NCBI RefSeq assembly: GCF_902809845.1
Contig: NZ_CADDWI010000013.1
Location: 1,210,114-1,274,113 of the forward strand
Source: Chelativorans sp. Marseille-P2723
Lineage (GTDB): Bacteria; Pseudomonadota; Alphaproteobacteria; Rhizobiales; Rhizobiaceae
Direction of reading: 5' to 3'
DNA length: 64,000 nucleotides
Shown here: piece by piece, positions 35,699 to 52,901 of the stretch
How positions within the stretch are numbered: the first letter of the stretch is position 1
How the letters are laid out: each line of letters opens with the position of its first letter
The notes under the pieces: generated by a model
Database searches by the model: none
What the model was told of the DNA's origin: nothing
What the model saw: only the letters and a program-made list of their open reading frames with translations
Translations under genes and position numbers: made by a program

Positions 35699-37582
35699 AT
35701 GCAGAACCTGCTGGACGATCTGACAGAGCTTCTGCAGGCCGACCAAGCCTTTATCTCGGACGGGGCGATCCTGAAGAATGCGGTGATCGAGGCCGCGCTG
35801 AACATGGACCCGCGCCTGCTGGCCCTGCTGATGCAGTCGCCCACGATCAAGGCGCATTTCTTCACCGAGGTGGCGGGCGCGCTGGTTTTCGACAAGGTGA
35901 AGTTTCAGGACTTCGTGTCGAACAAGGCGTTCCTGCCCGACAGCTACACGGCCTTCAAGAACCGCATCGGCCTGACGGACGGGCGCGGCGATTACCTGAG
36001 CCAGTCGCGCGACGTGGTGCTGGCGTGGCCCTACAAGGACTGCGTGCTGGAAGGCGGCATGACCAAAGAGGATCGTGGCCGCAACGAAGTGTTCTGGAAC
36101 ACGACGCTGGCCCCGGACGACATCACGCGGCTGTTTGAACCCAAGGTGCTGACCGGCTGGGAACGCTGGGATGCCGAGGCCGTGGCAGCGGGCAAGGCCA
36201 AGCCCGTGGGAGTGGTATCAGAGGACGACAACCTGCTTATCAAGGGCAACAACCTGCTGGCGCTGCATTCGCTGAAAGCGCGCTATGCGGGGAGGGTAAA
36301 GCTAATCTATATCGATCCGCCCTATAACACCGGCAATGACGGGTTTCGGTATAACGACCGCTTCAACCATTCGGCATGGCTGACCTTCATGCGGAACAGG
36401 CTGGAAGTGGCGAAGGAATTGCTGAGCCGGGATGGGGCAATCTTCGTCAATCTAGATGACGGCGAGGCGCACTATTGCAAGGTGCTGATGGATGAGGTGT
36501 TCGGGCGAGAAAACTTTGTGGCGAACGTGGTTTGGCAGAAAAACTATACCGTGAAGAACTCGGCTAAATATCTTTCCGACATGCACGACCACATTCTAAT
36601 TTTTGCCAAAGATCGAGAAACCTGGCGACCAAACTTAGTCGCACGAAAAGCGGATACCACGGACAGCTATACGAACCCGGATGGTGACCCACGTGGACCC
36701 TGGACAACTAATGCGGTTCAGGCGAGGAATTATTATAGTGAAGGCTCATACGAAATAGTTGGACCAAACGGTCGGTCCCATCTCCCACCTACTGGTACAT
36801 ATTGGCGGGTGTCGAAAAGCACTTTTGAGAAGCTGCTTGCAGATGATCGTATCTGGTGGGGAGCGAGGGGTGATGCAATCCCAAGAATAAAGAAATTTCT
36901 TTCGGAGGTCAAAGAAGGCGTTGTATCGCCAACTTGGTGGAAGCATGATGAAACTGGGACAAACGCAGAAGCCAAAGAAGAGGCACGGACGTTGCTTCAA
37001 GATGACAATGCCCTCTTCATGACGCCGAAGCCAGAACGTCTCCTTCATCGCATTATAGAGATCGGCTCAAACGAGAACGAAATCATCCTGGATTTCTTTT
37101 CAGGATCAGGCACAACACCATCGGTTGCCCAGAAAATGGGGCGTCGCTGGCTTGCCATTGAACAAATGGATTACATTCTTGAGCTGCCTGCATCTCGCCT
37201 CAAGAAAGTCATCGAAGGCGAACAGGGCGGGATTTCCGAGGCAGTGGGGTGGCAGGGCGGCGGGTCTTTCGTCTATGCCGAGCTTGCGCAGTCCAATTCC
37301 GCCTTCGCCACACGGATCGAGGCCGCACCCGACACCGCCGCGCTGCAAGGCATCTGGGCCGACATGCAGGCCACCGGCTATCTGCGCCCGGACGTAGATA
37401 CACGCGCCTTCGATGCCGGTGTCTTCGCCGACCTGCCCGTGGAGGACGCAAAGCGCCTGCTGATGGACTGCCTCGATGCCAACCACCTGTACGTCAACTT
37501 AAATAGCTTGGGCGATGCGAATTACGATATCTCAGACGACGACATGCGCGCCACCCGGTCCTTCTACGGCATAGACCAATGA
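35699..37582 (+). CDS. Type III restriction-modification methyltransferase (Mod)
   Basis: A 627-aa beta-class N6-adenine methyltransferase: catalytic DPPYNT at residues 206-211 precedes the SAM-binding FFSGSGTT at 466-473. Between them (about residues 280-460) is the target-recognition region, whose DNA (about 36,520-37,110) is visibly AT-richer than either end, consistent with exchange of this part. It gives modification and site recognition for the Res subunit; coupled to res by an ATGA overlap. The target sequence cannot be read from this. Confidence 0.9.
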   Translation: MQNLLDDLTELLQADQAFISDGAILKNAVIEAALNMDPRLLALLMQSPTIKAHFFTEVAGALVFDKVKFQDFVSNKAFLPDSYTAFKNRIGLTDGRGDYLSQSRDVVLAWPYKDCVLEGGMTKEDRGRNEVFWNTTLAPDDITRLFEPKVLTGWERWDAEAVAAGKAKPVGVVSEDDNLLIKGNNLLALHSLKARYAGRVKLIYIDPPYNTGNDGFRYNDRFNHSAWLTFMRNRLEVAKELLSRDGAIFVNLDDGEAHYCKVLMDEVFGRENFVANVVWQKNYTVKNSAKYLSDMHDHILIFAKDRETWRPNLVARKADTTDSYTNPDGDPRGPWTTNAVQARNYYSEGSYEIVGPNGRSHLPPTGTYWRVSKSTFEKLLADDRIWWGARGDAIPRIKKFLSEVKEGVVSPTWWKHDETGTNAEAKEEARTLLQDDNALFMTPKPERLLHRIIEIGSNENEIILDFFSGSGTTPSVAQKMGRRWLAIEQMDYILELPASRLKKVIEGEQGGISEAVGWQGGGSFVYAELAQSNSAFATRIEAAPDTAALQGIWADMQATGYLRPDVDTRAFDAGVFADLPVEDAKRLLMDCLDANHLYVNLNSLGDANYDISDDDMRATRSFYGIDQ

Positions 37583-40206
37583 CCCAGACCCTGAACGACA
37601 AGCTGGGCGCGGCGGCAGACATGGGGCTGCTGAAAAAGGACATTCCCGACCATATCACCGGCAACCTGGCCCCCAAGATTGCGCTGCGCCCCTATCAGGT
37701 CACGGCGCTCGAGCGGTTCCTGTTCTTCGTGGAGGATTACCCGCAGAAGCCGTCGAACCCGCACCTGCTGTTCCACATGGCCACGGGCAGCGGCAAGACG
37801 GTGCTGATGGCGGCGCTGATGCTGGACCTCTACACGCGCGGCTATCGCAACTTCCTTTTCTTCGTGAACTCAGCCCAGATCATTGAGAAGACCAAGGAAA
37901 ACTTTCTCAACGCCGCATCGGCCAAGCACCTGTTCGCGCCCACAGTGCGCATCAATGACAAGCCGGTGGACATCCGCGCAGTGGATACCTTCGACGCGGT
38001 GTCGAAGGATGCGATCAACATTCACTTCACCACCATTCAAGGGCTGCACACCCGAATGCAGAACCCGAAAGAGAACGCCGTCACCATCGAGGACTTCCGC
38101 GATTACAAGGTAGTGATGTTCTCGGACGAAGCGCACCACCTGAACGCCGAGACCAAGAAGACGCTGACCAAGGGCGAGGCCGAAGACAAGGCCAGTTGGG
38201 AAGGCACAGTGTCCGAGATTTTCCGCCAGCATCCCGAAAACATGCTGTTGGAGTTTACCGCAACCGTGGACCTGAGCCACGAGGCGATCCGGGCCAAGTA
38301 TGCCGACAAGATACTCTACGACTATTCGCTCCGACAGTTTCGAGAAGACGGCTATTCCAAGGACATTGAGTTGCGGCAGGCCGATTTGCCGCCCGAGGCC
38401 CGTATGATGCAGGCGATGGTCTTGAGCCAATACCGCCGCAAGGTGGCCGAGGCGCACGGGCTGCATTGCAAGCCGGTTATCCTGATGAAGTCTAAGACCA
38501 TAGCAGCATCGGGCGAAAACGAAACGGACTTCGCGGCGATGGTAGCGGGTCTGACCGGCGAGCGGCTCGAAGCCCTGCGCGCAGCATCAAGCGGGGATGA
38601 GACGTTATCCCGCGCCTTCGCCTTCATCATAGACGAACGCGGCATGGCGGCAGACGACTTCGCCCACGAGTTGCAGGGCGATTTCAGCCCCGACAAGGTA
38701 GTGAACGTTAACAACCCGACGGATTTGGAAAAGAGACAGATAGAGCTGAACGCGCTTGAGGACCGCGCGAACGAGATACGGGTGATCTTCGCCGTTGATA
38801 AGCTGAACGAAGGCTGGGACGTGTTGAACCTGTTCGACATCGTGCGCCTGTACGACACCCGCGACGGAAAGGCGAACAAGGTGGGCAAGACCACCATGGC
38901 CGAGGCGCAGTTGATCGGGCGCGGAGCACGATACTTTCCATTCACTGCCCCTGATCAGCCCGATGCCGCGCAGGAGAAACGCAAATACGACAGCACAGTT
39001 GAACACCCGCTGCGCATCCTAGAAGAACTGCATTACCATTGTTCCCACAATCCGAAATACATTCAGGACATCCGCAACGCCCTGCGCCAAACCGGGATGC
39101 TGGACGACACTGCCCGCACAGTGCGGCTCCGGCTTAAGGACAGCTTCAAGCAATCGTCCCTCTATTTGTCTGAATATGTCTGGGTAAATGACAGGATCAG
39201 AAACCCGCGTGAAGGCGTGGCGGGGCTGGACGCATATAGCGTTCCCTCCAACATTATCTATCCGACGCTGATGACAGGGCGTGTGACGGAAAGCTCCGCC
39301 TTTGGCGGCGGCCAGTTGAAACTGACGCCGACCGACAAAGAGCCGATAGCGCGCGATCTCAAGCTGACAGACTTCGGCAAGGCCATTCTGGGTTTTGCGA
39401 TGGACGGCAACCACTTCTTCCACTTTGCCAATCTCAGGACGTATTTCCCGCAGCTTGCCAGCGCATCGCAGTTTCTGACATCAGCCACCTATCTGGGCGG
39501 GGTGACGGTGACTGTGCGCGGTCTGCTCGATGACTTGGACGCGCTGACCGCGCGGCAGAAACTCGACATTACGCAATATGTGCTCCACCAGATCGAAAGT
39601 GGCGTGAAGCGCGAAAGCGTGGACTTTGTCGGAACGAAGGATTTCAAGCCGTACCGGATCAGCGATCGTTTTACCGACAAGACGCTGAAACTGCGTATCG
39701 AAGGCGAAACCGGCCTGAGTTGGGTCAATGGCGAAAGCAATGTGCCGGGTCTGGATCAGATCGACCTGACGACGAAAGACTGGCACGCCTATGACGACAG
39801 CTACGGCACCGATCAGGAAAAGCACTTCATCAAGTACCTGAATGATCAGGCCGACCGGCTGCAGGAACGATATGACGACTTCCACCTGCTGCGGAACGAG
39901 AAAGCGGTAAAACTGTTTGCCTTCGCGGACGGGCAGGCATTCGAGCCAGATTTCGTGCTGTTCCTGCGCAAAAAGGGTGAGGAAACTAGCACGATCTTGC
40001 AACTATTCGTTGAACCCAAGGGCGATCACCTGAAACAGGCCGATAGCTGGAAGGAAGCGTTTCTAACGGACATAGAAGGCCAAGGGCGTATCGAAATCAT
40101 ATTTCAGGGGCGCGACTATTCAGTGTACGGCCTGCCCTTCTTCAACGATCAGGGGCAGAGCAATGCAGACTTCAAGGCGGGATTTGAACGGTTCCTCAAC
40201 GGCTAA
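37579..40206 (+). CDS. Type III restriction endonuclease subunit (Res)
   Basis: An 875-aa SF2 helicase-nuclease. Walker A ATGSGKT at residues 68-74, DEAHH at about 185-189, and the helicase C-domain motif AQLIGRGARYFPF near residues 445-460. The C-terminal nuclease shows FEPDFVLFL and LFVEPKGDH, a PD...ExK pattern. It cuts DNA when two unmodified sites are met and needs Mod for recognition. Intact and full length. Confidence 0.9.
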   Translation: MTQTLNDKLGAAADMGLLKKDIPDHITGNLAPKIALRPYQVTALERFLFFVEDYPQKPSNPHLLFHMATGSGKTVLMAALMLDLYTRGYRNFLFFVNSAQIIEKTKENFLNAASAKHLFAPTVRINDKPVDIRAVDTFDAVSKDAINIHFTTIQGLHTRMQNPKENAVTIEDFRDYKVVMFSDEAHHLNAETKKTLTKGEAEDKASWEGTVSEIFRQHPENMLLEFTATVDLSHEAIRAKYADKILYDYSLRQFREDGYSKDIELRQADLPPEARMMQAMVLSQYRRKVAEAHGLHCKPVILMKSKTIAASGENETDFAAMVAGLTGERLEALRAASSGDETLSRAFAFIIDERGMAADDFAHELQGDFSPDKVVNVNNPTDLEKRQIELNALEDRANEIRVIFAVDKLNEGWDVLNLFDIVRLYDTRDGKANKVGKTTMAEAQLIGRGARYFPFTAPDQPDAAQEKRKYDSTVEHPLRILEELHYHCSHNPKYIQDIRNALRQTGMLDDTARTVRLRLKDSFKQSSLYLSEYVWVNDRIRNPREGVAGLDAYSVPSNIIYPTLMTGRVTESSAFGGGQLKLTPTDKEPIARDLKLTDFGKAILGFAMDGNHFFHFANLRTYFPQLASASQFLTSATYLGGVTVTVRGLLDDLDALTARQKLDITQYVLHQIESGVKRESVDFVGTKDFKPYRISDRFTDKTLKLRIEGETGLSWVNGESNVPGLDQIDLTTKDWHAYDDSYGTDQEKHFIKYLNDQADRLQERYDDFHLLRNEKAVKLFAFADGQAFEPDFVLFLRKKGEETSTILQLFVEPKGDHLKQADSWKEAFLTDIEGQGRIEIIFQGRDYSVYGLPFFNDQGQSNADFKAGFERFLNG

Positions 40207-40404
40207 ATAGCCGGAGGCTGATTGCGCCCCAAGCCGACCGCACTGCATGAGTCTTGTGCTAAATTATCCGATTGCCCTGATGCCCATCTAGGTATCGTCG
40301 TCAATAACTGTAGAACTCGGCTCTGAAACGAAAAAGATCCCACCGCGGGAGGAGTTGCAGCAGGCTCTTGGAGTAACGAACTGTGAATGTGAACGAGGAG
40401 TTTT

Positions 40405-40655
40405 GCCTCGACGATTGAAGGCGAGAGCAGCGTCAGACGCAAAATCCGACTGACATAGGAGGCACTGATCTTCTCTGCGGCAGCGACCTCCTCGATGGTG
40501 GTGTGAACGCCAGTTTCCAGCAGCTCGCGCCAACGAAAGCCACGGCGATCGCCTTGACCGTGTTGTCGACACGAGCACGAGGCAGCGCACATGACGATAT
40601 GCCATCCGGCAGGATGATCTGCTTGTGCCCACCGCGCTGTGTAAAGGACAAACGC
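40405..40655 (-). pseudogene. Decayed copy of the HTH gene at 41858-42256
   Basis: On the minus strand, the DNA repeats the middle of the intact HTH gene: the phrases ETGVHTTIEEVAAAEKISASYVSRILRLTLLSPSIVEA and RGGHKQIILPDG are both present but in different frames. A 1-bp loss (CACGGCG against CACGGGCG) and a 3-bp loss nearby break the frame, and the start region is altered. It is therefore a pseudogene, about 1.5 kb from its intact relative, both on the same strand with a baeRF gene between them. Confidence 0.75.
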
Positions 40656-40742
40656 GCAAACTTCTAATCCGTTGTTTGCAATCGCACCTCCCCAGCCCTA
40701 GGTGAAAAGCATTGCTTGTCTCGAAAATACGAAGGATTCTCC

Positions 40743-41861
40743 ATGCTTTATGTCGATATCCCGACGCTTTCTGACCTACGAAAGCTCAATGAGGTACGCG
40801 CTGATGCTTGCGTGTCACTCTATGTTCCCACCACTCCGGTGACTCAGGATGTTGAGGCATCTCGCATTGAGGCAGGCAATCTCGCCAAGCAAGCATACGA
40901 ACAACTTCAAGCTGATGGCTTGGACAAGCGTCGCTTGGCGGCACTTGGAGAGCAACTGGATGATTTGCTGGACGATGACGAATTCTGGCGTTTTCAGGCA
41001 AATTCACTCGCGATCTTTGCGACGCCGGATACGATCCAGACATTCCGGCTGGCAAACCGCCTCCAGCCGATCATTGAAGTGGCGGATCGCTTCCTAACCA
41101 AGCCGCTGATGCGTGCCATCACCTTCGCCAATGATGGATTCGTACTCGCTCTGTCTGAGAACGATGTACGTTTGATCGAAATCTTCCCGGACCTTCCGCC
41201 GCAACGCGTGCAGGTGCCAAACCTGCCGAAAGATGCTGCGAGTGCAGTCAAGGTATCCTTGCTCAACAACCGTACGTCATTGCGTCGTGTGATGGGTTCC
41301 GAAGGCCAAAAGGTGCGGCTCGCACAATATGCGCGGATGGTGGATGCTGCCATTCGCCCGATACTTTCTAATCGCGACGCGCCATTGATCCTGGCAGCCA
41401 ACGAGCCTGTTGCGGCCATTTTCCGGTCGATCAACAGCTATCCGAATCTCGTTCCCGACACCCTGACGGTGACCAACGACCGATCGACCGAGGCAGAAAT
41501 TGCCGCAGCGGCACGCCCCATACTCGATGCCACCTATGCGCGGGAGATCAACGAGGTCAAAGCCCTGTTTGAACAACGCGCCAGCGACCGCCGGGCAACC
41601 ACGGACATTTCAGATGCAGCGCGTCTTGCCACATATGGTGGGATTGAAACCCTGCTGGTGAATTTCGATGAGGTCGTCCATGGCACCGTCGATGAGGATA
41701 CCGGAGCCGTCGTCTTTGGCGAGGAAGGGCCTGACACCTATGGCATCGTGGATGAGATCATGGCTCGGGCATTGGCCAGCGGCGCGCGCGTTCTTGCTGC
41801 ACGCAAGGATGATATTCCAGGCGGTGCATCGTTGGCGGCCACATTACGCTATCCACTTTAG
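40743..41861 (+). CDS. baeRF-type (archaeo-eukaryotic release-factor fold) protein
   Basis: A 372-aa soluble protein; N-terminus MLYVDIPTLSDLRKLNEVRA followed by CVSLYVPTTP, which I recognise as the bacterial eRF1-like (baeRF, probably family 11) group. Later parts, with PLILAANEPVAAIFRSIN and the C-terminal ASGARVLAARKDDIPGGASLAATLRY, fit the eRF1/Pelota-like third domain. No GGQ motif is present. Function of the family is not established; roles in ribosome rescue or biological conflict have been proposed. An AAGGATTCTCC box lies before ATG 40743. Isolated, opposite in strand to the surrounding HTH copies. Confidence 0.55.
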   Translation: MLYVDIPTLSDLRKLNEVRADACVSLYVPTTPVTQDVEASRIEAGNLAKQAYEQLQADGLDKRRLAALGEQLDDLLDDDEFWRFQANSLAIFATPDTIQTFRLANRLQPIIEVADRFLTKPLMRAITFANDGFVLALSENDVRLIEIFPDLPPQRVQVPNLPKDAASAVKVSLLNNRTSLRRVMGSEGQKVRLAQYARMVDAAIRPILSNRDAPLILAANEPVAAIFRSINSYPNLVPDTLTVTNDRSTEAEIAAAARPILDATYAREINEVKALFEQRASDRRATTDISDAARLATYGGIETLLVNFDEVVHGTVDEDTGAVVFGEEGPDTYGIVDEIMARALASGARVLAARKDDIPGGASLAATLRYPL

Positions 41862-42256
41862 GATCCGCTGGCTTTGCTGATCTGCCGATCCCACTCTAGC
41901 GGGAACGGCTTCATCAATGTGGCAAGGGTCATCTCTGGCCCTTGCCTGCCGTCGAGGATCGCGTCGACGATTGAAGGCGCCAGGAGGGTTAGACGCAAAA
42001 TCCGACTGACATAGGAGGCGCTGATCTTTTCAGCGGCGGCAATGTCCTCGATGGTGGTGTGAACGCCAGTTTCAAGCAGCTTGCGCCAGCGGAAGCCACG
42101 GGCGATCGCCTTGACCATCGTGTTATCCACACGAGCACGAGGCGGCGCCCATGACGAAGTGCCGTCGGGCAGGACAATCTGCTTGCGCCCACCGCGCTTG
42201 TTGAACGTGATCGGCACATGCACGGTAATAGTGTCGTTATCGCGCGTGACGGTCAT
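41858..42256 (-). CDS. HTH protein of a serine-recombinase module
   Basis: A 132-aa protein with helix-turn-helix IEDIAAAEKISASYVSRILRLTLLAPSIVDAILDGRQ (about residues 68-105), similar to KorB/ParB-type DNA-binding helices. Its N-terminal part (ITVHVPITFNKRGGRKQIVLPDG) is a short strand-rich segment. Starts 2 bp after the recombinase stop (TAG-CT-ATG). In other alphaproteobacterial prophages the same small gene follows the DUF2924-recombinase pair; a recombination directionality factor or repressor role is an inference. Fourth gene of the integration module. Confidence 0.75.
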   Translation of the reverse strand: MTVTRDNDTITVHVPITFNKRGGRKQIVLPDGTSSWAPPRARVDNTMVKAIARGFRWRKLLETGVHTTIEDIAAAEKISASYVSRILRLTLLAPSIVDAILDGRQGPEMTLATLMKPFPLEWDRQISKASGS

Positions 42257-42258
42257 AG

Positions 42259-43590
42259 CTACGCTGCCTTCCTACTGCCTGCGACTGTCTGATCTGGACG
42301 AACAGCCCCCAGTTCCGCAACAAGGCCGGCCAACCCTAGCGTGCGCAGGCGGATGGCAAGGCCATCAGCAGCAAGATCAACCCGCTCGACCAGAAGCTGA
42401 ACAATGCGCGCCTGCTCGGTCGGAAACAGTTCGTCCCAGATCGGATCGAGCCGCTCCAGCGCATCGCGAACCTCGGCCTCTGGCAATTCATTGATTTCCG
42501 ACCGAGCCGCACGCCATGTGCCGATGATGATTTCTGGCGCACGCAGAAGCCCACGCAGCTGATCAATAACGGCGTTCTCCACCTCTGCGGCAGGCACGCG
42601 AGCGATCGGACAGGCATTTGCGCCACGTTTCAGCACCGACTGGCTGACATAATAGCGATAAAGTTTGTCGCCCTTCCTCGTATGCGTTGGCGAGAATGCG
42701 GCCCCATCCGGACCAAAGATCAGGCCTTTCAACAGCGCCGGCGTCTGCGCCCGCGTATTGCTGGCGCGTTTGCGCGGGCTTGTCTGAAGAATGGCATGGA
42801 CCTTGTCCCATAGAGCACGATCGATGATCGCCTTGTGCTCGCCGGGATAGCTTTCGCCCTTGTGCACGGCTTCACCGATATAGACCCGGTTGTTGAGCAG
42901 TTTGTAGAGAAAGCCCTTGTCGACCAGTTTTCCCCGGCGGGTGCGCACATTTTCTGCGGTCAGAGCTTTTGCCAAGACCGTCGCCGAACCGATACTGACA
43001 AAGCGCTCGAAGATCATGCGTACCGTGGCAGCCTCGGTTTCCTCGACTACCAGCTTGCGGTTTTCCACCCGGTAGCCGAGCGGAACGACACCACCCATCC
43101 ACATGCCCTTCTTGCGGGAGGCACGGATCTTGTCGCGAATGCGTTCGGCCGTGACCTCGCGTTCGAACTGGGCAAAGGACAGCAGAATGTTGAGCGTCAG
43201 CCTGCCCATCGATGTGGTGGTGTTGAACGACTGCGTCACGGAGACGAAGGTGACGCCATTTCTGTCGAACACCTCGACCAGCTTCGAAAAATCCATCAGC
43301 GAGCGTGACAGGCGGTCGATCTTGTAGACGACCACCACATCAACCAGCCCGTCCTCGATATCAGCCAGCAGCTGTTTTAGCGCCGGCCGCTCCAGCGTAC
43401 CGCCGGAGATGCCGCCGTCATCATACTGATCACGCACCAGCACCCAGCCCTCGGAGCGCTGGCTGGCGATATAGGCTTCGCAGGCCTCGCGTTGCGCATC
43501 GAGACTGTTGAATTCCTGCTCCAGCCCTTCCTCGGAGGACTTTCTGGTGTAGATGGCGCAGCGCAGCTTACGAATGGTGGGTTTGTTCAT
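42259..43590 (-). CDS. Large serine recombinase (phage integrase type)
   Basis: A 443-aa resolvase/invertase-fold integrase. Catalytic Ser is in CAIYTRKSSEEG (about residue 18), with VYKIDRLSRS, and FAQFEREVTAERIRDKIRASRKKG joining to the recombinase domain. The recombinase/zinc-beta part has GRYVSQSV-like YRYYVSQSVLKRGANACPIARVPA, close to the family's zinc ribbon. Start 43590 (MNKPTIRKL) overlaps the DUF2924 stop by ATGA. Such enzymes integrate and excise phage or mobile DNA at attP/attB with help from a directionality factor. Confidence 0.93.
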   Translation of the reverse strand: MNKPTIRKLRCAIYTRKSSEEGLEQEFNSLDAQREACEAYIASQRSEGWVLVRDQYDDGGISGGTLERPALKQLLADIEDGLVDVVVVYKIDRLSRSLMDFSKLVEVFDRNGVTFVSVTQSFNTTTSMGRLTLNILLSFAQFEREVTAERIRDKIRASRKKGMWMGGVVPLGYRVENRKLVVEETEAATVRMIFERFVSIGSATVLAKALTAENVRTRRGKLVDKGFLYKLLNNRVYIGEAVHKGESYPGEHKAIIDRALWDKVHAILQTSPRKRASNTRAQTPALLKGLIFGPDGAAFSPTHTRKGDKLYRYYVSQSVLKRGANACPIARVPAAEVENAVIDQLRGLLRAPEIIIGTWRAARSEINELPEAEVRDALERLDPIWDELFPTEQARIVQLLVERVDLAADGLAIRLRTLGLAGLVAELGAVRPDQTVAGSRKAA

Positions 43591-44039
43591 GCCCGGCTCC
43601 GGTGATTTTTCAGGCCGAAGAAGATCCAGCCATTCCAGCGCGTGCCGGTGATGGCGCGGGCAACCGATGACAGGCTTTTGTAAGGGCGTCCCTGCCATTC
43701 AAAACCATCGGCCAGCACGGTGACGGTGTGCTCGACACCCTGCCATTCGCGGATCAGGCGGGTTCCGACAATTGGTCGATCATCGGCACGGTTGCGGCGT
43801 ACCATCAAGTTGCCGCCATCAAGCTGTTCACCCAAGACTTCCAGCCGCTCGATTGTCGAGGGCTTCAGCCCGCCAAGGCTGAGTTCCTGGATGCGATAGG
43901 CCAGCCTGCTTTCGAGATAGCGCCGGTTGAAGGCAGGCGGCTCGCTGTCGAACAGATCGCGCCACTGCTTTTTCAATTCCGGTGTTGTGGCCGTCTTCAG
44001 CGCCACCAGGCGCTTGGGGATATGATCATGCGTCGTCAT
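43587..44039 (-). CDS. DUF2924 protein of the integration module
   Basis: A 150-aa protein of the DUF2924 family: LTATTPELKKQWRDLF-type start (KTATTPELKKQWRDLFD), RLAYRIQELSLGGL, and a C-terminal GRPYKSLSSVARAITGTRWNGWIFFGL, which resembles a SAWADEE/RAMA-like compact module often found at the end of such proteins. Start 44039 (MTTHDH) overlaps the upstream 56-aa gene by ATGA. Its function is unknown but it nearly always precedes a serine recombinase, so a role in integration or site choice is inferred. Confidence 0.88.
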   Translation of the reverse strand: MTTHDHIPKRLVALKTATTPELKKQWRDLFDSEPPAFNRRYLESRLAYRIQELSLGGLKPSTIERLEVLGEQLDGGNLMVRRNRADDRPIVGTRLIREWQGVEHTVTVLADGFEWQGRPYKSLSSVARAITGTRWNGWIFFGLKNHRSRA

Positions 44040-44206
44040 GAAACTCTCCGGTGAGTTGGAGTTGCATGACGGCATCGATCTGGCGTGAAGTGAAGGCAAC
44101 TTTCTCCACTATCTTCAACAGGATGAGCGCATTTACGCTGACGCAGCCGAATGATGCCGCGTACCAGCAACTGGCACAGTTCGGCATGACGTTCTGCAGT
44201 GGACAT
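44036..44206 (-). CDS. 56-aa protein, first gene of the integration module
   Basis: A small protein from ATG 44206: MSTAERHAELCQLLVRGIIR, then LRQRKCAHPVEDSGESCLHF and PDRCRHATPTHRRVS. The tail SGES-x-L-x-F-xPD-x-x-HA is like short proteins I recall in front of DUF2924 in rhizobia. It overlaps the DUF2924 start by ATGA. A longer reading of the same frame continues upstream to 44425 but runs into the divergent 736-aa gene, so the short form is preferred. Function unknown; perhaps a DNA-binding or structural partner. Confidence 0.6.
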   Translation of the reverse strand: MSTAERHAELCQLLVRGIIRLRQRKCAHPVEDSGESCLHFTPDRCRHATPTHRRVS

Positions 44207-44334
44207 ACGATCAGGCGGGAGGGGATTAGGGCTTCGCATGTATCTCTCCTTTGTAGGAGAAAAGCCGCCCATGCTGGCCAAACAGGACATTTTGCCCTTA
44301 GACTTTGCGAGGCAAGTATTTTCGGGAGGGGAAT

Positions 44335-46545
44335 ATGGTGCGCGCACCGGCCAAAAGCTGTCCAAATTTGTCGAGATTATTCGAAGATGCTGAGCCAGAA
44401 CTTCTAGCCCAATTCCTGAATGCAACTGCCTTCCAGCGATTGGCCTGGCTTGAAGATTACCGGTTCAGTGCGGATGATCCAGAAGGTCCGTCAACTGCCC
44501 GCAACATGCTGCTTAAGGAAAAGAAGGATCGGCTGGGTCCGCTTGAGACAGAGGCAGCGCGCATCATAAACATTGCCAGCGACCGCGGTGAGTACGCCCT
44601 TGAGGGCCTGACAGGAACCAGCCTGGAAAATGACCGCGCAAGGGTGCTTCTTGGCCAACGCGATAACCTCGCGCGGAGTTTATGGACATATATCAGAGAG
44701 CACGCGCTTTTCGAAGCAGCAGAGAATAGTCTGCACCTGCGCCTGTACCGGCGATATGACAAACATTATCAGACATTCATGGCAGAACCGTCAGCTGGCG
44801 GCGGTCCGGATGCTAGCGGTGCTTTACTTGACGAGCTACTTGCCGATCTGGGCAAGCGGCTTGACCGTGGCGAGGGCTACAGCATCGACAGGTTCGACAT
44901 TCCCGAGGACGGTGACGAACCTGCAGCCGAAATGTATTTGCTGTTTCATCCTGATCCGCCGACCAGCGTTCGGGAGATTGACGATCAGGGCAATCGGTCA
45001 AGAATCTATTTTCGTCCGCCCGGGGAAGCGATGATCGTTTTTACTCCCTCAACAGGACGGGTGCACGTTCGCGCACGCAACAGAAGATTGCGCCACACCA
45101 TTGCTGAGCGCTTTATCGAAACGGCACTGCAGCAGACATACTCCAGTCAGCCTGTCGATTTTCAGGCCTACGATATTTCACAGTTCCTGAAGGGATTCGA
45201 CCTCCCACTACCAGATTTCGATGAAGACGCGGTAATCCTAAACGCACAGGTCATCCGCGCTGACATTAGTATCGGCAACCTTACCAATCGGCTTTCGCTT
45301 TCCACCACCATTGGACAGAATATCTCTGAGCTAATACAAAGTCAGCCGGGCTTATCCAGGATCTTCGAACGTGCATTGGCTATTCGATTCATTGAAATCG
45401 CGGTTCGCTATTGGCGAACCGATCGGGAAAATGAGGAAACTCTCAACTTCACGCTCACAGATCGCAATACCAGCAGCCTGCTCAGCCTCGATGATCCGTT
45501 CGAACGCGTCCTCGGACATCGCCTGCTTCGACACTGGAACATCATGCGAGAAGGTCGGGCGCCAAGCGCTGCTGAGAGCATGATGGTTATCCCCGCCCTG
45601 TTGGCCATTTGGGACATCGGGGCCGATAAGGTCGCGGGCACCTGGCTTCAGGCTCGTGGTATCGCCCCAAAGATCCTAATCGATTTGGGCTTTCTCGTGC
45701 CCGCCGGCTGGGAAGGCGATGACCTGATCGACGATGAGGACGAGGTCGGCCCGGTCACGGCCGAAGTGGTCGTCCGGATCGAGAGGGGGGATGCGGAGGA
45801 AGAAGACCGTAAAGTAGCCGACCTCAACGTCTCCGAAGGACAGGTGACGCCTGCGGACAACCCGGATCGCTACAGGATCTATCGGGTGCGCGACGGCTGG
45901 GTGGTGCAACACCTGAAGGAACGTCTCGAACAAGTGCTCGACGCGCCTGCCATCGAGAAGCTTACAGATCACCTCTTCTACCTTGGAACGCTCGGGGTCG
46001 ATGGCGGGAATGTTCCGATCTACCTTGCGCGTGGTCTAGACCGGGAGAAGGTCCGGTCGGCCGTCGATACGGAACTTCGGGCGCGCGCCAATCTCGGTGT
46101 TGGCCTGATTCTGCAGGCCGGCCACGCTTCGGGGCCATGTCTGGCAGCCAACGTTTTGACGCCGCTTGCCGATCAGATCGACGATGATCAGTCCGAAATC
46201 GCATTAGTCGCAGACAAGCTCCGGTCCGTGTTTCGGCGACACCGGATACTGGCCCGTGGTGGACAGGCGGTCGAACTCACTCGCTCCGGGGAGACCCTTG
46301 CTACTCTGTTTGTTCCAGGGAAAGGCAGCATCGACATAGAAGGTAAGAACCGCATCGCGGTCATCCAGCGACTTGTCGATGCGCACAACAATGGCCCGAT
46401 GCCAATGGCAACCCGAGATCTTGTCAAGGACATCGCCGAAGACCAATCCCTATCGAATATCTTCAAGCAGCCGCTCTGGAGCAAGTTGAAAGCTAACTTT
46501 TTGCGAAGCCTTGGCGCCAGAGGGCCCTGGGAGATCGCCATCTGA
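44335..46545 (+). CDS. 736-aa protein of unknown function next to integration module
   Basis: Starts at ATG 44335 with GGGAGGGGAAT just before it. I do not recognise a family. It opens with KSCPNLSRLFEDAEPELLAQFL, is rich in acidic residues, has no membrane segment, no Walker motif and no nuclease triad that I can see. The middle (about 310-420) is largely helical with VILNAQVIRADISIGNLTN; the end (QRLVDAHNNGPMPMATRDLV, KQPLWSKLKANFLRSLG) resembles a winged helix. It is divergent from the integration module and 95 bp before a Com-like gene. Possible phage exclusion or defence factor; no function is assigned. Confidence 0.85.
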   Translation: MVRAPAKSCPNLSRLFEDAEPELLAQFLNATAFQRLAWLEDYRFSADDPEGPSTARNMLLKEKKDRLGPLETEAARIINIASDRGEYALEGLTGTSLENDRARVLLGQRDNLARSLWTYIREHALFEAAENSLHLRLYRRYDKHYQTFMAEPSAGGGPDASGALLDELLADLGKRLDRGEGYSIDRFDIPEDGDEPAAEMYLLFHPDPPTSVREIDDQGNRSRIYFRPPGEAMIVFTPSTGRVHVRARNRRLRHTIAERFIETALQQTYSSQPVDFQAYDISQFLKGFDLPLPDFDEDAVILNAQVIRADISIGNLTNRLSLSTTIGQNISELIQSQPGLSRIFERALAIRFIEIAVRYWRTDRENEETLNFTLTDRNTSSLLSLDDPFERVLGHRLLRHWNIMREGRAPSAAESMMVIPALLAIWDIGADKVAGTWLQARGIAPKILIDLGFLVPAGWEGDDLIDDEDEVGPVTAEVVVRIERGDAEEEDRKVADLNVSEGQVTPADNPDRYRIYRVRDGWVVQHLKERLEQVLDAPAIEKLTDHLFYLGTLGVDGGNVPIYLARGLDREKVRSAVDTELRARANLGVGLILQAGHASGPCLAANVLTPLADQIDDDQSEIALVADKLRSVFRRHRILARGGQAVELTRSGETLATLFVPGKGSIDIEGKNRIAVIQRLVDAHNNGPMPMATRDLVKDIAEDQSLSNIFKQPLWSKLKANFLRSLGARGPWEIAI

Positions 46546-46550
46546 GGGCT

Positions 46551-46593
46551 GGCTCCGATCTGGCTCCGATTGGGGGGTCTGACGGGCTCCGAT
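46551..46593. repeat. Three direct GGCTCCGAT repeats
   Basis: GGCTCCGAT occurs exactly at 46551-46559, 46562-46570 and 46585-46593, i.e. start spacings of 11 and 23 bp, close to one and two helix turns. They fill the gap between the 736-aa gene and the Com-like gene. This layout fits a cluster of operator sites. Confidence 0.6.
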
Positions 46594-46605: not shown

Positions 46606-46640
46606 TGGAAGTGCTCACTCAATCTAGAGGAGCACTTCCA
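46606..46640 (+). promoter_or_regulatory. 11-bp hairpin covering the Com-like start codon
   Basis: TGGAAGTGCTC (46606-46616) and GAGCACTTCCA (46630-46640) are a perfect 11-bp inverted repeat with a 13-nt loop. The ribosome-binding box AGAGGAG (46626-46632) straddles loop and stem, and the A of the ATG (46640) is the last stem base. In RNA this would partly hide the initiation site of the zinc-finger gene; as DNA it could be a dimeric protein site. Confidence 0.65.
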
Positions 46641-46885
46641 TGCCGACTCCCTTTCCTCCGCGCCACGCAGCCTCGACGAGATGGCCCGGCGCCGCGACGA
46701 CCAAGCCCACCCCTTCGAACTCGGAATGGCGCTGCACCCGCTGTGACAAGCTGCTCGGCGTCTGCAGGGACGGCCGCATGCATCTGCGCTTTGCGCGGGG
46801 GCACGAATATCTGGTGGGCTTCCCGGTCCAAGCCACCTGCCGCAGCTGCGGCACGCTGAACCACGCGACCGCCCCCGCGCGCTAA
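46640..46885 (+). CDS. Com-like zinc-finger protein
   Basis: An 81-aa protein with a CxxC...CxxC zinc ribbon: WRCTRCDKLLGVCRDG and ATCRSCGTLNH, and a conserved HLRFARGHEYLVGFP between. This resembles phage Mu Com, an RNA-binding protein that opens a hairpin to allow translation of mom. Here it starts inside a hairpin itself (46606-46640). The N-terminal 27 residues are unstructured and Pro/Thr/Ser-rich. First gene of the rightward phage operon. Binding target here is unknown. Confidence 0.7.
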   Translation: MPTPFPPRHAASTRWPGAATTKPTPSNSEWRCTRCDKLLGVCRDGRMHLRFARGHEYLVGFPVQATCRSCGTLNHATAPAR

Positions 46886-46985: not shown

Positions 46986-47708
46986 ATGTCTATCGCGTGG
47001 CACGAGATCCGTGATCACCTTATGAAAACCTCTTCCACCCTTCAATTCCAACGCAGCTTCGATGCTTTCCGTAGCGTGCATCAGACTCTCGCATTGTTCC
47101 GAGATCCTGCAGCCCTCCTTGACTGGCTGCACAGTAAAACCAACGAACCAGACACCAAAAACCTGATCCTCTCGACGCTGGTTGAGGCGGCGCAGACTGA
47201 AGGATATGCATCCGATTGCGCGCTGACCATGCTGTTGCTGGCGCTTTGGCCCGGTCTGGACGCGATCCGGCGGCGATCCATTTGGCGCAGGATCGGCACC
47301 GCAGACGAAATCACATCCGACGTGCTGGTACGCACGACAGAGGCCGTCCGCAGACTTGACCTCGAGCACGTCAATTGGATTGCAGCCACGGTCTTACGGA
47401 ACGTCGAACGTGACATGATCCGCGCCCGCCAGCGCGATGCAGCATGCAAAAGTCTGAACAGCGACACCGAACCTGACGATGTAGTCACCGATCAGGTCCG
47501 GCAACGGCCCGAGGCTGAGGATGCGTTCATTCAGAAGGATCTGCAAACGCTGATCGGCGCGGACGCCCTGTTGGTAATCCGCGTGGCCATCGAGGGTTTT
47601 ACGCAGGCCGAGGTCGCCACTGAACTTGGCGTGTCCGAGGACGCCGCTCGCAAACGCTATCAGCGCGCCATCCGGCGTCTGCGCGATGCCCTGCAACAAA
47701 TCGTCTGA
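46986..47708 (+). CDS. Phage-encoded sigma-factor-like protein
   Basis: A 240-aa protein with a C-terminal sigma-70 region 4 helix-turn-helix, EGFTQAEVATELGVSEDAARKRYQRAIRRLRDAL (about residues 203-237), and an N-terminal helical part that includes LEHVNWIAATVLRNVERDMIRARQRD, like sigma region 2 with its linker. It has no long acidic region 1.1, so it is ECF-like. Start 46986, or 47022 (MKTSSTLQF). A middle/late transcription activator of the phage is plausible. Other choice: a decision regulator of host genes. Confidence 0.65.
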   Translation: MSIAWHEIRDHLMKTSSTLQFQRSFDAFRSVHQTLALFRDPAALLDWLHSKTNEPDTKNLILSTLVEAAQTEGYASDCALTMLLLALWPGLDAIRRRSIWRRIGTADEITSDVLVRTTEAVRRLDLEHVNWIAATVLRNVERDMIRARQRDAACKSLNSDTEPDDVVTDQVRQRPEAEDAFIQKDLQTLIGADALLVIRVAIEGFTQAEVATELGVSEDAARKRYQRAIRRLRDALQQIV

Positions 47709-50094: not shown

Positions 50095-50739
50095 ATGACT
50101 ACTGGATTTGGACTGAGCATTGGAAGCGGTAAGGATTTTCTGCCCTCCATCCGCATCAACGGCAAGGATGGCGGCGTCGAGCGATCGACATGGGATGGCA
50201 GCGAACGTGGTCTCGAAGTAGTCGATGACCTCGTTTGCCTCATGGACTGGGCCACGCTCCAGGTGGGCTGGGTCGAGTTTACAGATCGTGGCCCCGACAA
50301 GCGGCTGGTGGCGATTGGCGATCCATTGCCGGACCGCCCCTCCGAAAAGCACAAGCAGGGCGTGCAGGTAGTCGTCTATCTGCCGGGTGGTCTTGGTTGC
50401 CATGAAATCTGTTCGACCGCGATCGGCGTCGTCGGCGCGCTGGAGCGCATCTATGATGCGAGCATCGCAGCACCTGAATGGCAGCAGGGCAAGGTACCAG
50501 TGGTGCGCCTGACCGAGTTCCAGAAAGAAAAGACCAAGCATGGCAACCGCGCCGTGCCGGTGTTCGAGATTCTTGACTGGAAGGATCGCCCCGCCGAGCT
50601 CGACGAGCACAAGGCGGCGCCAAAGCCGCGCGCAGCAATTCCGGCATCCACCAGTACGAGCCGTCCGGCTGCGACCGGCTCAACCCAGATGACGCCGCCT
50701 GCGTCCGTCACCCGCGCCCCGGTGCCGGACTTCGGATGA
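50095..50739 (+). CDS. Probable phage DNA-binding protein of the replication module
   Basis: A 214-aa protein (ATG 50095) starting MTTGFGLSIGSGKDFLPSIR. The C-terminal third is low complexity (Ala/Pro/Ser/Thr, like SSB tails), ending PVPDFG, an acidic-aromatic tip. By position between an exonuclease and a primase it may be a single-strand DNA-binding protein, but I see no certain OB-fold signature. The stop overlaps the next start (ATGA). Confidence 0.5.
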   Translation: MTTGFGLSIGSGKDFLPSIRINGKDGGVERSTWDGSERGLEVVDDLVCLMDWATLQVGWVEFTDRGPDKRLVAIGDPLPDRPSEKHKQGVQVVVYLPGGLGCHEICSTAIGVVGALERIYDASIAAPEWQQGKVPVVRLTEFQKEKTKHGNRAVPVFEILDWKDRPAELDEHKAAPKPRAAIPASTSTSRPAATGSTQMTPPASVTRAPVPDFG

Positions 50740-52901
50740 GTGTCGAGGGGATCGGGAGGCGGCCACCTTCCGATCCCCGTGCACCGCACATGCAGACTGC
50801 TTGGTGGGGGAGGTCCACATGGGGTACGACAATGACGCTAGAAGTACCGGATGAATTTGCAAGCGCCTGCCAGTGGGCTGACAGCTATCGGGCGCTCGGT
50901 CTTGCGGTAATCCCTGCCGCTGGCCGGGAAAAGATCCCGGTCGGCAAATGGCGTGAGTTCCAGACCGGCATTCCGCAGACCGTCCATGATCGCTGGTACG
51001 GCGATGATGGCGAACATCGTGCCAATTACCGCATGGGCTTTTTGACCGGTGCGGCGTCACTCGGCGATGGCTGGAAGCTGCTGGTCATTGATCTTGACGA
51101 GAAAGGCACAGTATCCGGCTCCACGACTTGGGATCACTGGATTGCCGATAACGAACTTGGCTGCGATCCTGAAACCTGGCGCGCCCGCACCGGTGGCGGC
51201 GGTCAGCATATCTATTTCCGCTATCCTGATCATCTTTCCATCAGGAATACACAGGAGACAATCGCCGGTATCGATGTCCGCGCTGAGGGTGGGTTTGTCA
51301 TCGCCCCGCCGTCGCGACATCAGAATGGCAAGCAATATCTCTGGATCTTCTCGCCCTTCGACACGGAACTGGCGGAAGCGCCGCAATGGCTGCTCGACAA
51401 GGTCGGCGCCACGGAGGCACTGCTACTGGCGGCCGCGCCAGCCCAGCCATCGACACTGTCATTATCATCACCTCCGCGCGCCCAAACGGCGACGATGGCG
51501 GCCGATCATTCGTCCTCACCGCAACAGGCCACCGATGCCTGGGGGCACATCGTCGATGGCCGCGATGCCTATATGCGCGACATGGTCTGGGCGGCAATCG
51601 TCGACTGGTATCGCGAATGTCCAATCCCGCCATCTGAGCGCGAGGTCGAGCAGAAGCTGCTTGAGGTTTACGCTGTCTATGAGCGCAAGGTGCGTCCGCA
51701 GGAAGCCGGCAACACGCTCGAGGGCGAGGGACGCGGCGTTTCTGCCTTCCGGAACAAGTGGGCCTACGCCATGCGGCAGTGGGATACCAAGGTTGCCGCG
51801 GCGGCGAAGGAAAAGCCAGCGGGAAACCACAGTGTCTGGGAACAAACCTCACCCTCGATCGACCCGTCGGCCGAACTGGAATGGTTCGACGATATCAATC
51901 CGATCATCAGCACGCCCTACATCGTCAAGGGCGTCCTTGATCTCGGTGCCATGTCGGTCGTTTACGGCCCCTCGAATTCCGGCAAGACCTTCTTCGCTCT
52001 TGATATCGCCTACCATGTTGCGATCGATCATTCCTGGCGGTCACAGCGCGTCGCAGGCGGGTCCGTCCTTTATCTCGCCGCCGAGGGTGGCAACGGCATC
52101 GCCAACCGCATCGTCGGGCTCAGAAAGACCAGCGGCGTTGTCGAGGTTCCCTTGGCGCTGCGCCGTGCGGGTCTCGATCTTCTTAATCCGGACGCCGACA
52201 CCGAACGTGTCGTCAAGCTTGCCGAGGAAGTCGCAAACCGCGCGCCCCTCAAGCTGATCGTCATCGACACGCTGTCGCGCGTCATCGCTGGCGGCGACGA
52301 GAACGGCCCGGTCGACATGACGGCCTTTATCAAGAACGTCGATCGCATCCGTCATGCCACCGGCGCCCATATCATGATCGTCCACCATACCGGCAAGGAT
52401 GCGGCCAAGGGCGCACGTGGTCATTCATCGCTCCGGGCCGCCACCGATACGGAGATCGAAGTGTCGGTCGACGAGATGGAGACCCGTTTCGCCAAAGTGA
52501 CCAAGCAACGTGACCTGCCGGGTGGCGAGGAATTTGCCTTCAAGCTTGATGCCGTGGCGCTCGGGGTCGACGATGACGGCGATACCATCACTACATGCGT
52601 CGTGCTGCCGGTGGAGAAGCAGGCGCAAACGGATGACCTCCTGCCGCCGCGCGCGACCTGCAAAGCCATCCTGAAGGCCGTCGACGACGCCTGGAAGGCG
52701 AAGCATCCATTCTCGATGGCGCCCCAGTCAAAAGCGTCCGGGCGATATGCCCCGCGGGCGCTCGGCCAGCAGTTCGACCTGCCCGGCAAGGCCATCGAGA
52801 GCCTGCTGATCAGCTGGATCGATAACGCCATCATCGCCGTCGAGATGTGTGATTCCGACACCAAGAAGCGGGGTTTGAAGGTGCTCGAGTGGCTCGATTG
52901 A
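50736..52901 (+). CDS. Primase-polymerase / RepA-like helicase fusion
   Basis: Up to 721 aa (an internal ATG at 50832 gives 689; the ATGA at 50736 would couple it to the previous gene). N-terminal bifunctional primase-polymerase domain: VIPAAGREKIPVGKW, VIDLDEKG, RTGGGGQHIYFRYP. Then an AAA/RecA-type helicase: Walker A GPSNSGKT (about residues 379-386 from 50832), Walker B LIVIDTLSRV and HHTGKDAAKGARGHSSLRAA. Replication protein of the phage; an iteron-like repeat cluster follows its stop. Confidence 0.88.
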   Translation: MSVEGIGRRPPSDPRAPHMQTAWWGRSTWGTTMTLEVPDEFASACQWADSYRALGLAVIPAAGREKIPVGKWREFQTGIPQTVHDRWYGDDGEHRANYRMGFLTGAASLGDGWKLLVIDLDEKGTVSGSTTWDHWIADNELGCDPETWRARTGGGGQHIYFRYPDHLSIRNTQETIAGIDVRAEGGFVIAPPSRHQNGKQYLWIFSPFDTELAEAPQWLLDKVGATEALLLAAAPAQPSTLSLSSPPRAQTATMAADHSSSPQQATDAWGHIVDGRDAYMRDMVWAAIVDWYRECPIPPSEREVEQKLLEVYAVYERKVRPQEAGNTLEGEGRGVSAFRNKWAYAMRQWDTKVAAAAKEKPAGNHSVWEQTSPSIDPSAELEWFDDINPIISTPYIVKGVLDLGAMSVVYGPSNSGKTFFALDIAYHVAIDHSWRSQRVAGGSVLYLAAEGGNGIANRIVGLRKTSGVVEVPLALRRAGLDLLNPDADTERVVKLAEEVANRAPLKLIVIDTLSRVIAGGDENGPVDMTAFIKNVDRIRHATGAHIMIVHHTGKDAAKGARGHSSLRAATDTEIEVSVDEMETRFAKVTKQRDLPGGEEFAFKLDAVALGVDDDGDTITTCVVLPVEKQAQTDDLLPPRATCKAILKAVDDAWKAKHPFSMAPQSKASGRYAPRALGQQFDLPGKAIESLLISWIDNAIIAVEMCDSDTKKRGLKVLEWLD

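Follow-up and report, generated by a model that had tools for sequence, protein, structure and literature searches.

P736, a fused two-part protein with adjacent direct repeats at the integration/early-operon boundary of a Chelativorans prophage, is a candidate lysogeny regulator

The P736 gene and its relatives

The 64,000-nucleotide stretch of the Chelativorans sp. Marseille-P2723 genome analyzed here (contig NZ_CADDWI010000013.1 of RefSeq assembly GCF_902809845.1, positions 1,210,114 to 1,274,113 of the forward strand; hereafter the window) carries, at the boundary between an integration module and a rightward early operon, a gene for a 736-amino-acid protein that we refer to as P736. Copies of a direct repeat, GGCTCCGAT, sit behind its stop codon and just ahead of the next operon (iterons 1 to 3 in Table 1). 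The reading developed below, to which we give about an even chance, is that P736 is a sequence-specific DNA-binding regulator of this adjacent operon, probably the lysogeny (immunity) repressor.

The P736 open reading frame (ORF) is intact, without internal stop, and its ATG follows the ribosome-binding site GGGAGGGG (44324-44331) at a distance of 3 bases. An alternative in-frame TTG lies upstream at 44305; the ATG is favored because most aligned homologs have a similar M-V-R beginning at an ATG. A first-pass annotation of this DNA had described a large intact gene of unrecognized family, with a good ribosome-binding site, between integration and early genes, and ORF, ribosome-binding site and neighbors are indeed as it described them.

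No family could be assigned to P736 in Pfam, NCBIfam or PADLOC, and nothing reliable was added by PDB sequences. PADLOC returned no family at E ≤ 10; Pfam returned no match to PF00486 at E ≤ 10, none to HTH_3 or Peptidase_S24, and no enzyme domain; RdgC families were found neither in Pfam (E ≤ 10) nor in NCBIfam (E ≤ 0.01), and replication families in neither of the two. Matches to SWIB (E 0.21) and Runt (E 0.006, in one relative only) were taken as chance matches. The sole PHROG match, 37634 (E 9.9e-17, residues 69-406), is a family of unknown function and covers the half of the protein referred to below as A. That P736 is more than a chance ORF follows from its relatives, which a search with the protein itself found in 45 viral-contig loci and which also occur in 50 GTDB genome loci, most of them near full length; an alignment query retrieved 54 viral-contig loci, largely from the same contigs. 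These relatives form two deep lineages, with about 55-82% and about 26% identity to P736, which differ between flanks that are alike (in L116, for instance, the P736 homolog is 26% and the Com-like protein 90% identical). Among 103 loci of at least 6 kb, the DUF2924 protein of the integration module was present in 95, its serine recombinase in 93 and its small helix-turn-helix (HTH) protein in 83, while the Com-like and sigma-like proteins of the early operon were present in 98 and 96, the misses including contig ends. In a tblastn search of 50,697 phage records P736 matched only phage AcaML1, whose gp6 (JX507079) is a distant homolog (25% identity over residues 214-710, E 1e-22). Gp6 and PHROG 37634 are both sequence homologs of P736, neither of known function, and gp6 differs in being encoded on the strand of the recombinase genes, which also has an annotated excisionase.

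Fused and split forms of the family

Judged by profile alignment, P736 is a fusion of two proteins, A (about 395 amino acids) and B (about 315 amino acids), that are encoded elsewhere as adjacent genes. The A family aligned to P736 with a probability of 99.5 (hhalign, E 4e-23) and the B family with a probability of 98.8 (E 4.7e-17). The two genes are neighbors in many prophages, mostly with an overlap of 8-35 nt, and B was present in 86 of the 87 A loci examined. A third pair, A' and B' (16 loci aligned), is related to the former: A' aligned to A with a probability of 96 (E 2.5e-9), B' to B with 92 (E 6.5e-7); the C-terminal alignment was also matched by B', with a probability of 95. A was found in 31 of 398 genomes of the phylum, the window's own genome counted; 11 further genome regions with A contained recombinase and DUF2924 in nine cases and DUF2924 alone in a tenth, and the linkage of the P736/A family to the integrase module holds across Proteobacteria. 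The window's own genome also contains a second weak A match (G000:C13:276473-276925, E 2.9e-4), perhaps belonging to a second prophage of the A'B' type.

Direct repeats that change with the gene

The repeat GGCTCCGAT does not recur elsewhere in the window, so that no second operator with the same iteron was found there, and a degenerate array with spacings of 11 and 21-25 bp was unique to this place when both window strands were searched. The same layout of three iterons 11 and 21-25 bp apart directly follows the gene in 70 of 73 loci of the first lineage (42 distinct 60-nt regions), and the three exceptions (L058, L079 and L089) retain two copies. The letters of the iterons shift in concert, reading AACTCCG three times in 11 loci and AACTGCG three times in four, and copies of the CGTCGATGA type are arranged alike in a Shinella locus (L067). 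In the second lineage, a different pair of repeats 11 bp apart was present in 20 of 21 loci. B and B' genes, including the copy of B on a Candidatus Tenderia plasmid, often have repeats of their own behind them, such as CCTACC (four copies), TTCTCYC (three), TCCCAC (four) and CACAC, as identified by eye.

This periodicity was also apparent from the self-similarity of 43 non-redundant 3' regions drawn from 170 loci, after removal of those whose flank was too short or whose stop was displaced. Relative to shuffles that kept base composition only, z scores of 10.9, 8.1, 4.6 and 9.6 were obtained at lags 11, 12, 22 and 23, respectively; 5' regions and coding controls had no peak at those lags. The 11-bp block ends 54-68 nt ahead of the next start codon in the 18 regions, out of 48, that were eligible. 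Mean G+C content just behind the stop is 0.55-0.62 (n=48), with no mean dip below 0.55 and with single 40-bp windows as low as 0.28. The 54-68 nt spacing without a deep G+C dip is operator-like geometry. TCTGAC, between iterons 2 and 3, may be a -35 element.

Exchange of B together with its repeats

Among the 79 pairs of two-gene loci whose A proteins are at least 95% identical, 24 have B proteins less than 50% identical (L149, which occurs in these, has a truncated B call); three fragments of the 80 A loci and L144, which has A without B, were left out of this comparison. Between L143 and L145, DNA identity is 96% as far as the A/B junction, and homology restarts 45 nt (L143) and 112 nt (L145) past the B stop codon. 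In each allele this restart coincides with the end of the last repeat, the last copies beginning at +41 and +108. Left and right breakpoints were then compared in 55 pairs with A at least 90% and B less than 50% identical, B models under 300 amino acids being left out: the right breakpoint lies 40-59 or 110-129 nt behind B in 49 pairs and elsewhere in six, zones that match the end of the last repeat in the two alleles inspected, and the left breakpoint is 20-79 nt from the B start in 45. These pairs share many members, so that independent events are few. In the two-gene relatives, B and its repeats are thus exchanged as one cassette, A staying at least 90% identical. Mainly because B and the repeats move together, B probably reads the repeats. 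The sites next to the gene accordingly co-vary with it, both in cassette swaps and in the concerted changes of iteron letters, and would be its operator.

Occupants of the slot

The first-pass annotation had pointed to exclusion or defense proteins as frequent occupants of this slot, had suggested that related prophages be compared for different large genes there, as in a defense hotspot, and had named conservation of one gene in related phages as the finding that would refute this. The slot instead keeps one family in most relatives. With the sigma-like protein as query, P736 was found in 38 of 45 loci, in all of them on the plus strand and less than 1 kb ahead of the sigma gene. Seven sigma-anchored loci lack P736 in the slot: a small ORF replaces it in L230, L239, L240 and L266, the P736 end lies at the contig edge in L262, L227 starts inside the Com-like gene, and L253 has a different, unscanned ORF of 450 amino acids. 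With DUF2924 as query, a survey of the best 80 of 376 DUF2924 relatives had a match to the family anywhere in the locus in 70 cases and, once slot position was required, a family member divergent from DUF2924 and at most 1.5 kb away in 59. Eleven of the 80 loci have an ORF of about 230 amino acids resembling the C-terminal half, 2-3.6 kb off on the same strand, and ten have none. Because 38 of 45 and 59 of 80 related loci hold the same family, the slot does not act as a defense hotspot, and that idea was rejected. Its variation is one of allele (the P736 lineages, the two-gene AB form and A'B') plus the repeats behind, rather than of gene kind. L268, whose flanks are very close to those of the window (recombinase 92%, DUF2924 95%), has an A'/B' pair instead of P736, with A' apparently broken over two frames.

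The short ORFs resembling the C-terminal half are those of L280, L283, L287, L288, L295, L298, L299, L307, L325, L335 and L340; behind some of them, GGGGAT-like repeats with a spacing of about 11 bp were seen by eye.

Predicted folds

The full-length model of P736, built from 45 sequences, has a predicted local distance difference test (pLDDT) score of 77 and a predicted template modeling score (pTM) of 0.60. The best Foldseek matches of this model are RdgC and inner-kinetochore chains (E 0.006-0.05, none below 1e-3); in the VIA comparison, rows 1-14 are CENP-L/CENP-N/Iml3-type chains, named by title or chain letter (Z 6.4-7.9), RdgC occupies rows 19-20 (Z 5.7) and RnlA has a Z of 5.2. Residues of about 145-408 are therefore predicted, weakly, to resemble the fold of RexA, RdgC and CENP-L/N, and RexA, RdgC, IML3 and CHL4 are described as one fold in the pertinent part of PMC11077077.

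Of the 25 best VIA rows for the C-terminal model (56 sequences, pLDDT 83), 22 are OmpR/PhoB/ToxR-type DNA-binding proteins (Z 4.9-6.5), pointing to a weak resemblance of the predicted P736 C terminus to OmpR/PhoB DNA-binding domains. PF00486 was detected at the C termini of the proteins of L268 (E 5e-5, 23.7 bits) and L316 (E 2e-4, 21.7 bits), both under the 26.2-bit cut-off, and five of the six weak matches of the L268 protein to PDB sequences are response regulators (E 0.12-1.2). According to PMC9019756, the direct repeats bound by PhoP proteins are either 7 bp long with 4-bp spacers or 11 bp long, a target layout that fits the 11-bp-spaced repeats behind P736.

Other features of the locus

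Beyond the features of Table 1, the rightward operon past the sigma-like gene includes a PD-(D/E)XK nuclease-like gene (E 1.4e-5) and a primase/helicase-like gene identified by eye at 50736-52901, and it continues with genes that appear to serve recombination and replication. An mRNA hairpin can form in the leader of the Com-like gene. Its five core pairs are invariant in 13 leaders chosen from 31 distinct ones; three outer pairs vary, and two of these pairs have changes on both sides, with three broken each; translational control by this hairpin is possible. On the left, a partial-looking second copy of the small HTH protein of the integration module (40203-40592), possibly a relic of an earlier integration, lies beyond a baeRF/ribosome-hibernation-factor-like gene (40716-41861), and an 875-amino-acid, restriction-like protein of the ResIII helicase type is encoded at 37579-40206, just outside the integration module.

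On the Candidatus Tenderia plasmid mentioned above (L142, CP013100.1, 7989-12670), A and B with TTCACACC-type repeats directly precede Multi_ubiq, JAB-like and ThiF genes, and the pair may control this ubiquitin-like operon. Multi_ubiq was not shown to be a general partner of A and B, none of 27 other A-bearing genomes having matched in a search whose controls were equally silent.

Table 1. Features of the P736 locus, in window coordinates.
Feature	Position	Strand	Basis or remark
P736	44335..46545	+	intact ORF, 736 amino acids, ribosome-binding site GGGAGGGG
A-like half, residues 1-408	44335..45558	+	hhalign of A family with P736; separate gene of ~395 amino acids elsewhere
B-like half, residues 412-736	45568..46542	+	hhalign of B family with P736; model pLDDT 82.7; separate gene of ~315 amino acids elsewhere
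Predicted winged helix, residues 644-736, possibly OmpR/PhoB type	46264..46542	+	VIA rows; weak PF00486 in L268 and L316
Iteron 1, GGCTCCGAT	46551..46559	+	exact repeat
Iteron 2, GGCTCCGAT	46562..46570	+	11 bp after iteron 1
Iteron 3, GGCTCCGAT	46585..46593	+	23 bp after iteron 2
TCTGAC	46578..46583	+	separates iterons 2 and 3; most 3' regions displayed keep TCTGAC or TCTAAC here
Large serine recombinase (integrase)	42259..43698	-	Resolvase, Recombinase and Zn_ribbon_recom; PF00239 E 4e-40, PF07508 E 6e-16
DUF2924 protein of the integration module	43587..44099	-	PF11149 E 1.6e-50
Small HTH protein of the integration module	41858..42256	-	TIGR00180 (ParB-like) E 1.8e-5, under cut-off
mRNA hairpin GGAAGTGCTC/GAGCACTTCC, Com-like gene leader	46607..46639	+	10 bp; 3' arm overlaps ribosome-binding site of the Com-like gene
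Com-like zinc-ribbon protein	46640..46885	+	first gene after the repeats; PF10122 E 0.006, below cut-off
Extracytoplasmic function (ECF)-sigma-like protein	46986..47708	+	TIGR02937 E 5.8e-12

Discussion

The anatomy of the locus, that is the intact gene in a conserved slot, the periodic repeats behind it and, in two-gene relatives, the exchange of B with its repeats, is strong; the direction of control is what we infer from it. That P736 binds the adjacent repeats is very likely, that it controls transcription at them is likely, and whether it does so as a repressor rather than as an activator is evenly poised. In the mechanism that we propose, a C-terminal winged helix of the OmpR/PhoB type would read, at one unit per helical turn, the direct repeats that closely follow its own gene, and the repeats would mark the start of the rightward early operon encoding the Com-like, sigma-like and further proteins. 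The N-terminal half, of the putative RexA/RdgC/CENP-N-like fold, would probably contribute dimerization as well as non-specific contact with DNA and thereby keep the complex on the operator. P736 would then most likely keep the early operon shut in the lysogen, with specificity residing in the B part plus its repeats. The lysogeny-repressor reading is suggested by this operator-like geometry and by the scarcity of recognizable CI-type repressors in the window and in P736 records: the window and the 68 kb on its right gave no match to HTH_3 or Peptidase_S24, HTH_3 is absent from 11 of 13 P736 records and from five of five A'B' records, and S24 occurs in one of the 13 P736 records. Among records without the family, HTH_3 is present in four of eight, in one of them under the cut-off.

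Several observations weigh against this proposal. An HTH_3 protein was found in all 18 AB records searched and, where coordinates were compared (e.g. L153, L154, L218), is encoded by a small XRE gene just upstream of A on the opposite strand, so that a classical repressor may coexist with AB and AB may belong to the lytic side. Four of 12 same-genome prophage pairs share an allele (more than 50% identical), against 1.23 expected by shuffling, in a rough test given that the hosts are related and that the sets were gathered by similarity; L271 and L117, which have no C-terminal domain, were left out. Like alleles thus give no sign of mutual exclusion, and heteroimmunity is unsupported by co-residence; four of the eight pairs counted as different involve the short C-terminal-half type. 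In genome 2889564546, a copy 100% identical to P736 resides together with a second prophage whose protein differs (22% identity, other repeats). The repeats themselves are not uniform: lag 11 ranks first in only 17 of the 43 3' regions, with lag 22-23 first in nine more, and in only five of 12 A'B' representative regions; some B genes are not directly followed by repeats; and among the distant copies only L363 has 11 as its best lag, L366 having a 10-bp repeat. A consensus scan returned no sigma-70 promoter at the repeats. All structure matches are weak (VIA Z below 8, Foldseek E above 1e-3), unrelated winged helices (SelB, ScpAB, TFIIE) come within 1.5 Z of the best C-terminal row, and no response regulator appeared among the 50 Foldseek matches listed for the C-terminal model or when the B alignment profile was compared with PDB sequences. 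B' did not align to full-length P736 (probability 0.7). Finally, the slot ORFs of L230, L239 and L266 are HTH_36/DnaD_N-like, a type known from replication initiators, and that of L240 begins like that of L239.

Some of these points suit other functions better. P736 or AB might be an early lytic activator that binds the repeats near a -35 element and turns on the next operon, repression being left to another protein such as the XRE protein of AB phages. Activation from direct repeats that overlap the -35 element is common among OmpR-type domains, AB points rightward, away from the integrase, the HTH_3 gene is constant in the AB records searched, and a terminator-like hairpin precedes the repeats in several AB alleles (by eye), so that the next operon would need its own promoter there. 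We consider this unlikely: with HTH_3 and S24 repressors missing from most P736 and A'B' records, no repressor candidate other than P736 was found, and frequent exchange of a specificity cassette would be harder to explain for an activator. Somewhat more improbable still is a replication initiator comparable to lambda O or plasmid Rep, for which the repeats would be origin iterons. Such iterons adjoin the gene, the B model has a further winged-helix-like stretch at its N terminus, as read from predicted secondary structure, the alternative slot occupants of L230, L239 and L266 have weak Phage_rep_O and RP-C matches, and prophages of the same allele can coexist. On the other hand, the G+C content just behind the stop offers on average no AT-rich unwinding tract, the repeats lie as close to the next start codon as indicated above where measured, replication families are not matched by P736, and the family is tied to the integrase module across Proteobacteria.

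That tie is itself an argument for an accessory of the serine integrase, be it a directionality factor or a regulator of integration and excision: recombinase and DUF2924 are nearby in 93 and 95 of the 103 loci and together in nine of the 11 further A regions, and AcaML1 gp6 shares the strand of the recombinase genes with an annotated excisionase. Transcription away from the integrase in most loci read and the position of the repeats on the opposite side, next to the early operon, render this role very unlikely. Least probable of all is superinfection exclusion or defense. The modeled RexA-like fold of the N-terminal half would provide one faint link to such a role, as does the position in the lysogeny region; against it stand the empty PADLOC search, the lack of an enzyme domain in Pfam, a slot constant in kind and the concerted change with operator-like repeats. 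P736 is thus probably not a defense gene.

The regulator that we favor can be set beside several known systems. The lambda-type CI repressors and their operators are similar in gene position, between integration module and early operon, in having operator-like sites adjacent to the gene and in the joint change of allele and site; unlike CI, P736 has 736 amino acids (or is split into two genes), lacks HTH_3 and the S24 protease, faces direct repeats instead of palindromes and occurs as the same allele twice in one genome. In an alphaproteobacterial phage, the immunity function is reportedly split over two overlapping genes, an arrangement resembling that of A and B, with different sizes; tblastn of one A protein against the phage records mentioned above returned nothing, and no homology to that two-gene immunity system was seen. 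With OmpR/PhoB proteins (Trans_reg_C, PF00486) the predicted C terminus shares the order of strands, then helices, then hairpin, as well as the 11-bp-spaced repeats beside its gene; it differs in going unrecognized by Pfam, in having no receiver domain shown, in being phage-encoded and in the likely location of its target beside its own gene. The predicted alpha/beta fold of residues ~145-408 is like that of lambda RexA, RdgC, Iml3 (CENP-L) and Chl4 (CENP-N), with VIA Z scores of only 5.7-7.9 for this fold group and no sequence match to RdgC families. RexA is likewise a lysogeny-region DNA-binding protein and shifts the phage switch; as far as the relevant part of PMC11077077 describes them, RexA and RdgC bind DNA non-specifically and have no reported winged helix of the P736 kind.

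Among the titles and abstract openings listed by full-text searches of the open-licence PMC library, none dealt with this protein family or with an OmpR-type prophage repressor. Tentatively, and with considerable doubt, we propose a class of prophage switch, distributed among Proteobacteria along with a serine-integrase module, in which a kinetochore/RexA-like fold is joined to an OmpR-type reader, fused in P736 and split in AB, with the reader and its tandem-repeat operator forming an exchangeable specificity cassette. The exchange of this cassette constitutes a natural experiment, with precise swaps of B plus repeats between phages that have flanking DNA up to 96% identical. If the proposal is true, one recombination event would change the regulatory identity of a phage while leaving the rest of the regulator unchanged, and regulatory or immunity groups would be readable from sequence as repeat letters plus B allele. 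The RexA/RdgC/CENP-L/N fold would gain a sequence-directed prokaryotic role, and many proteobacterial prophages, often without a recognizable CI-type repressor, would gain a candidate pair of switch protein and operator.

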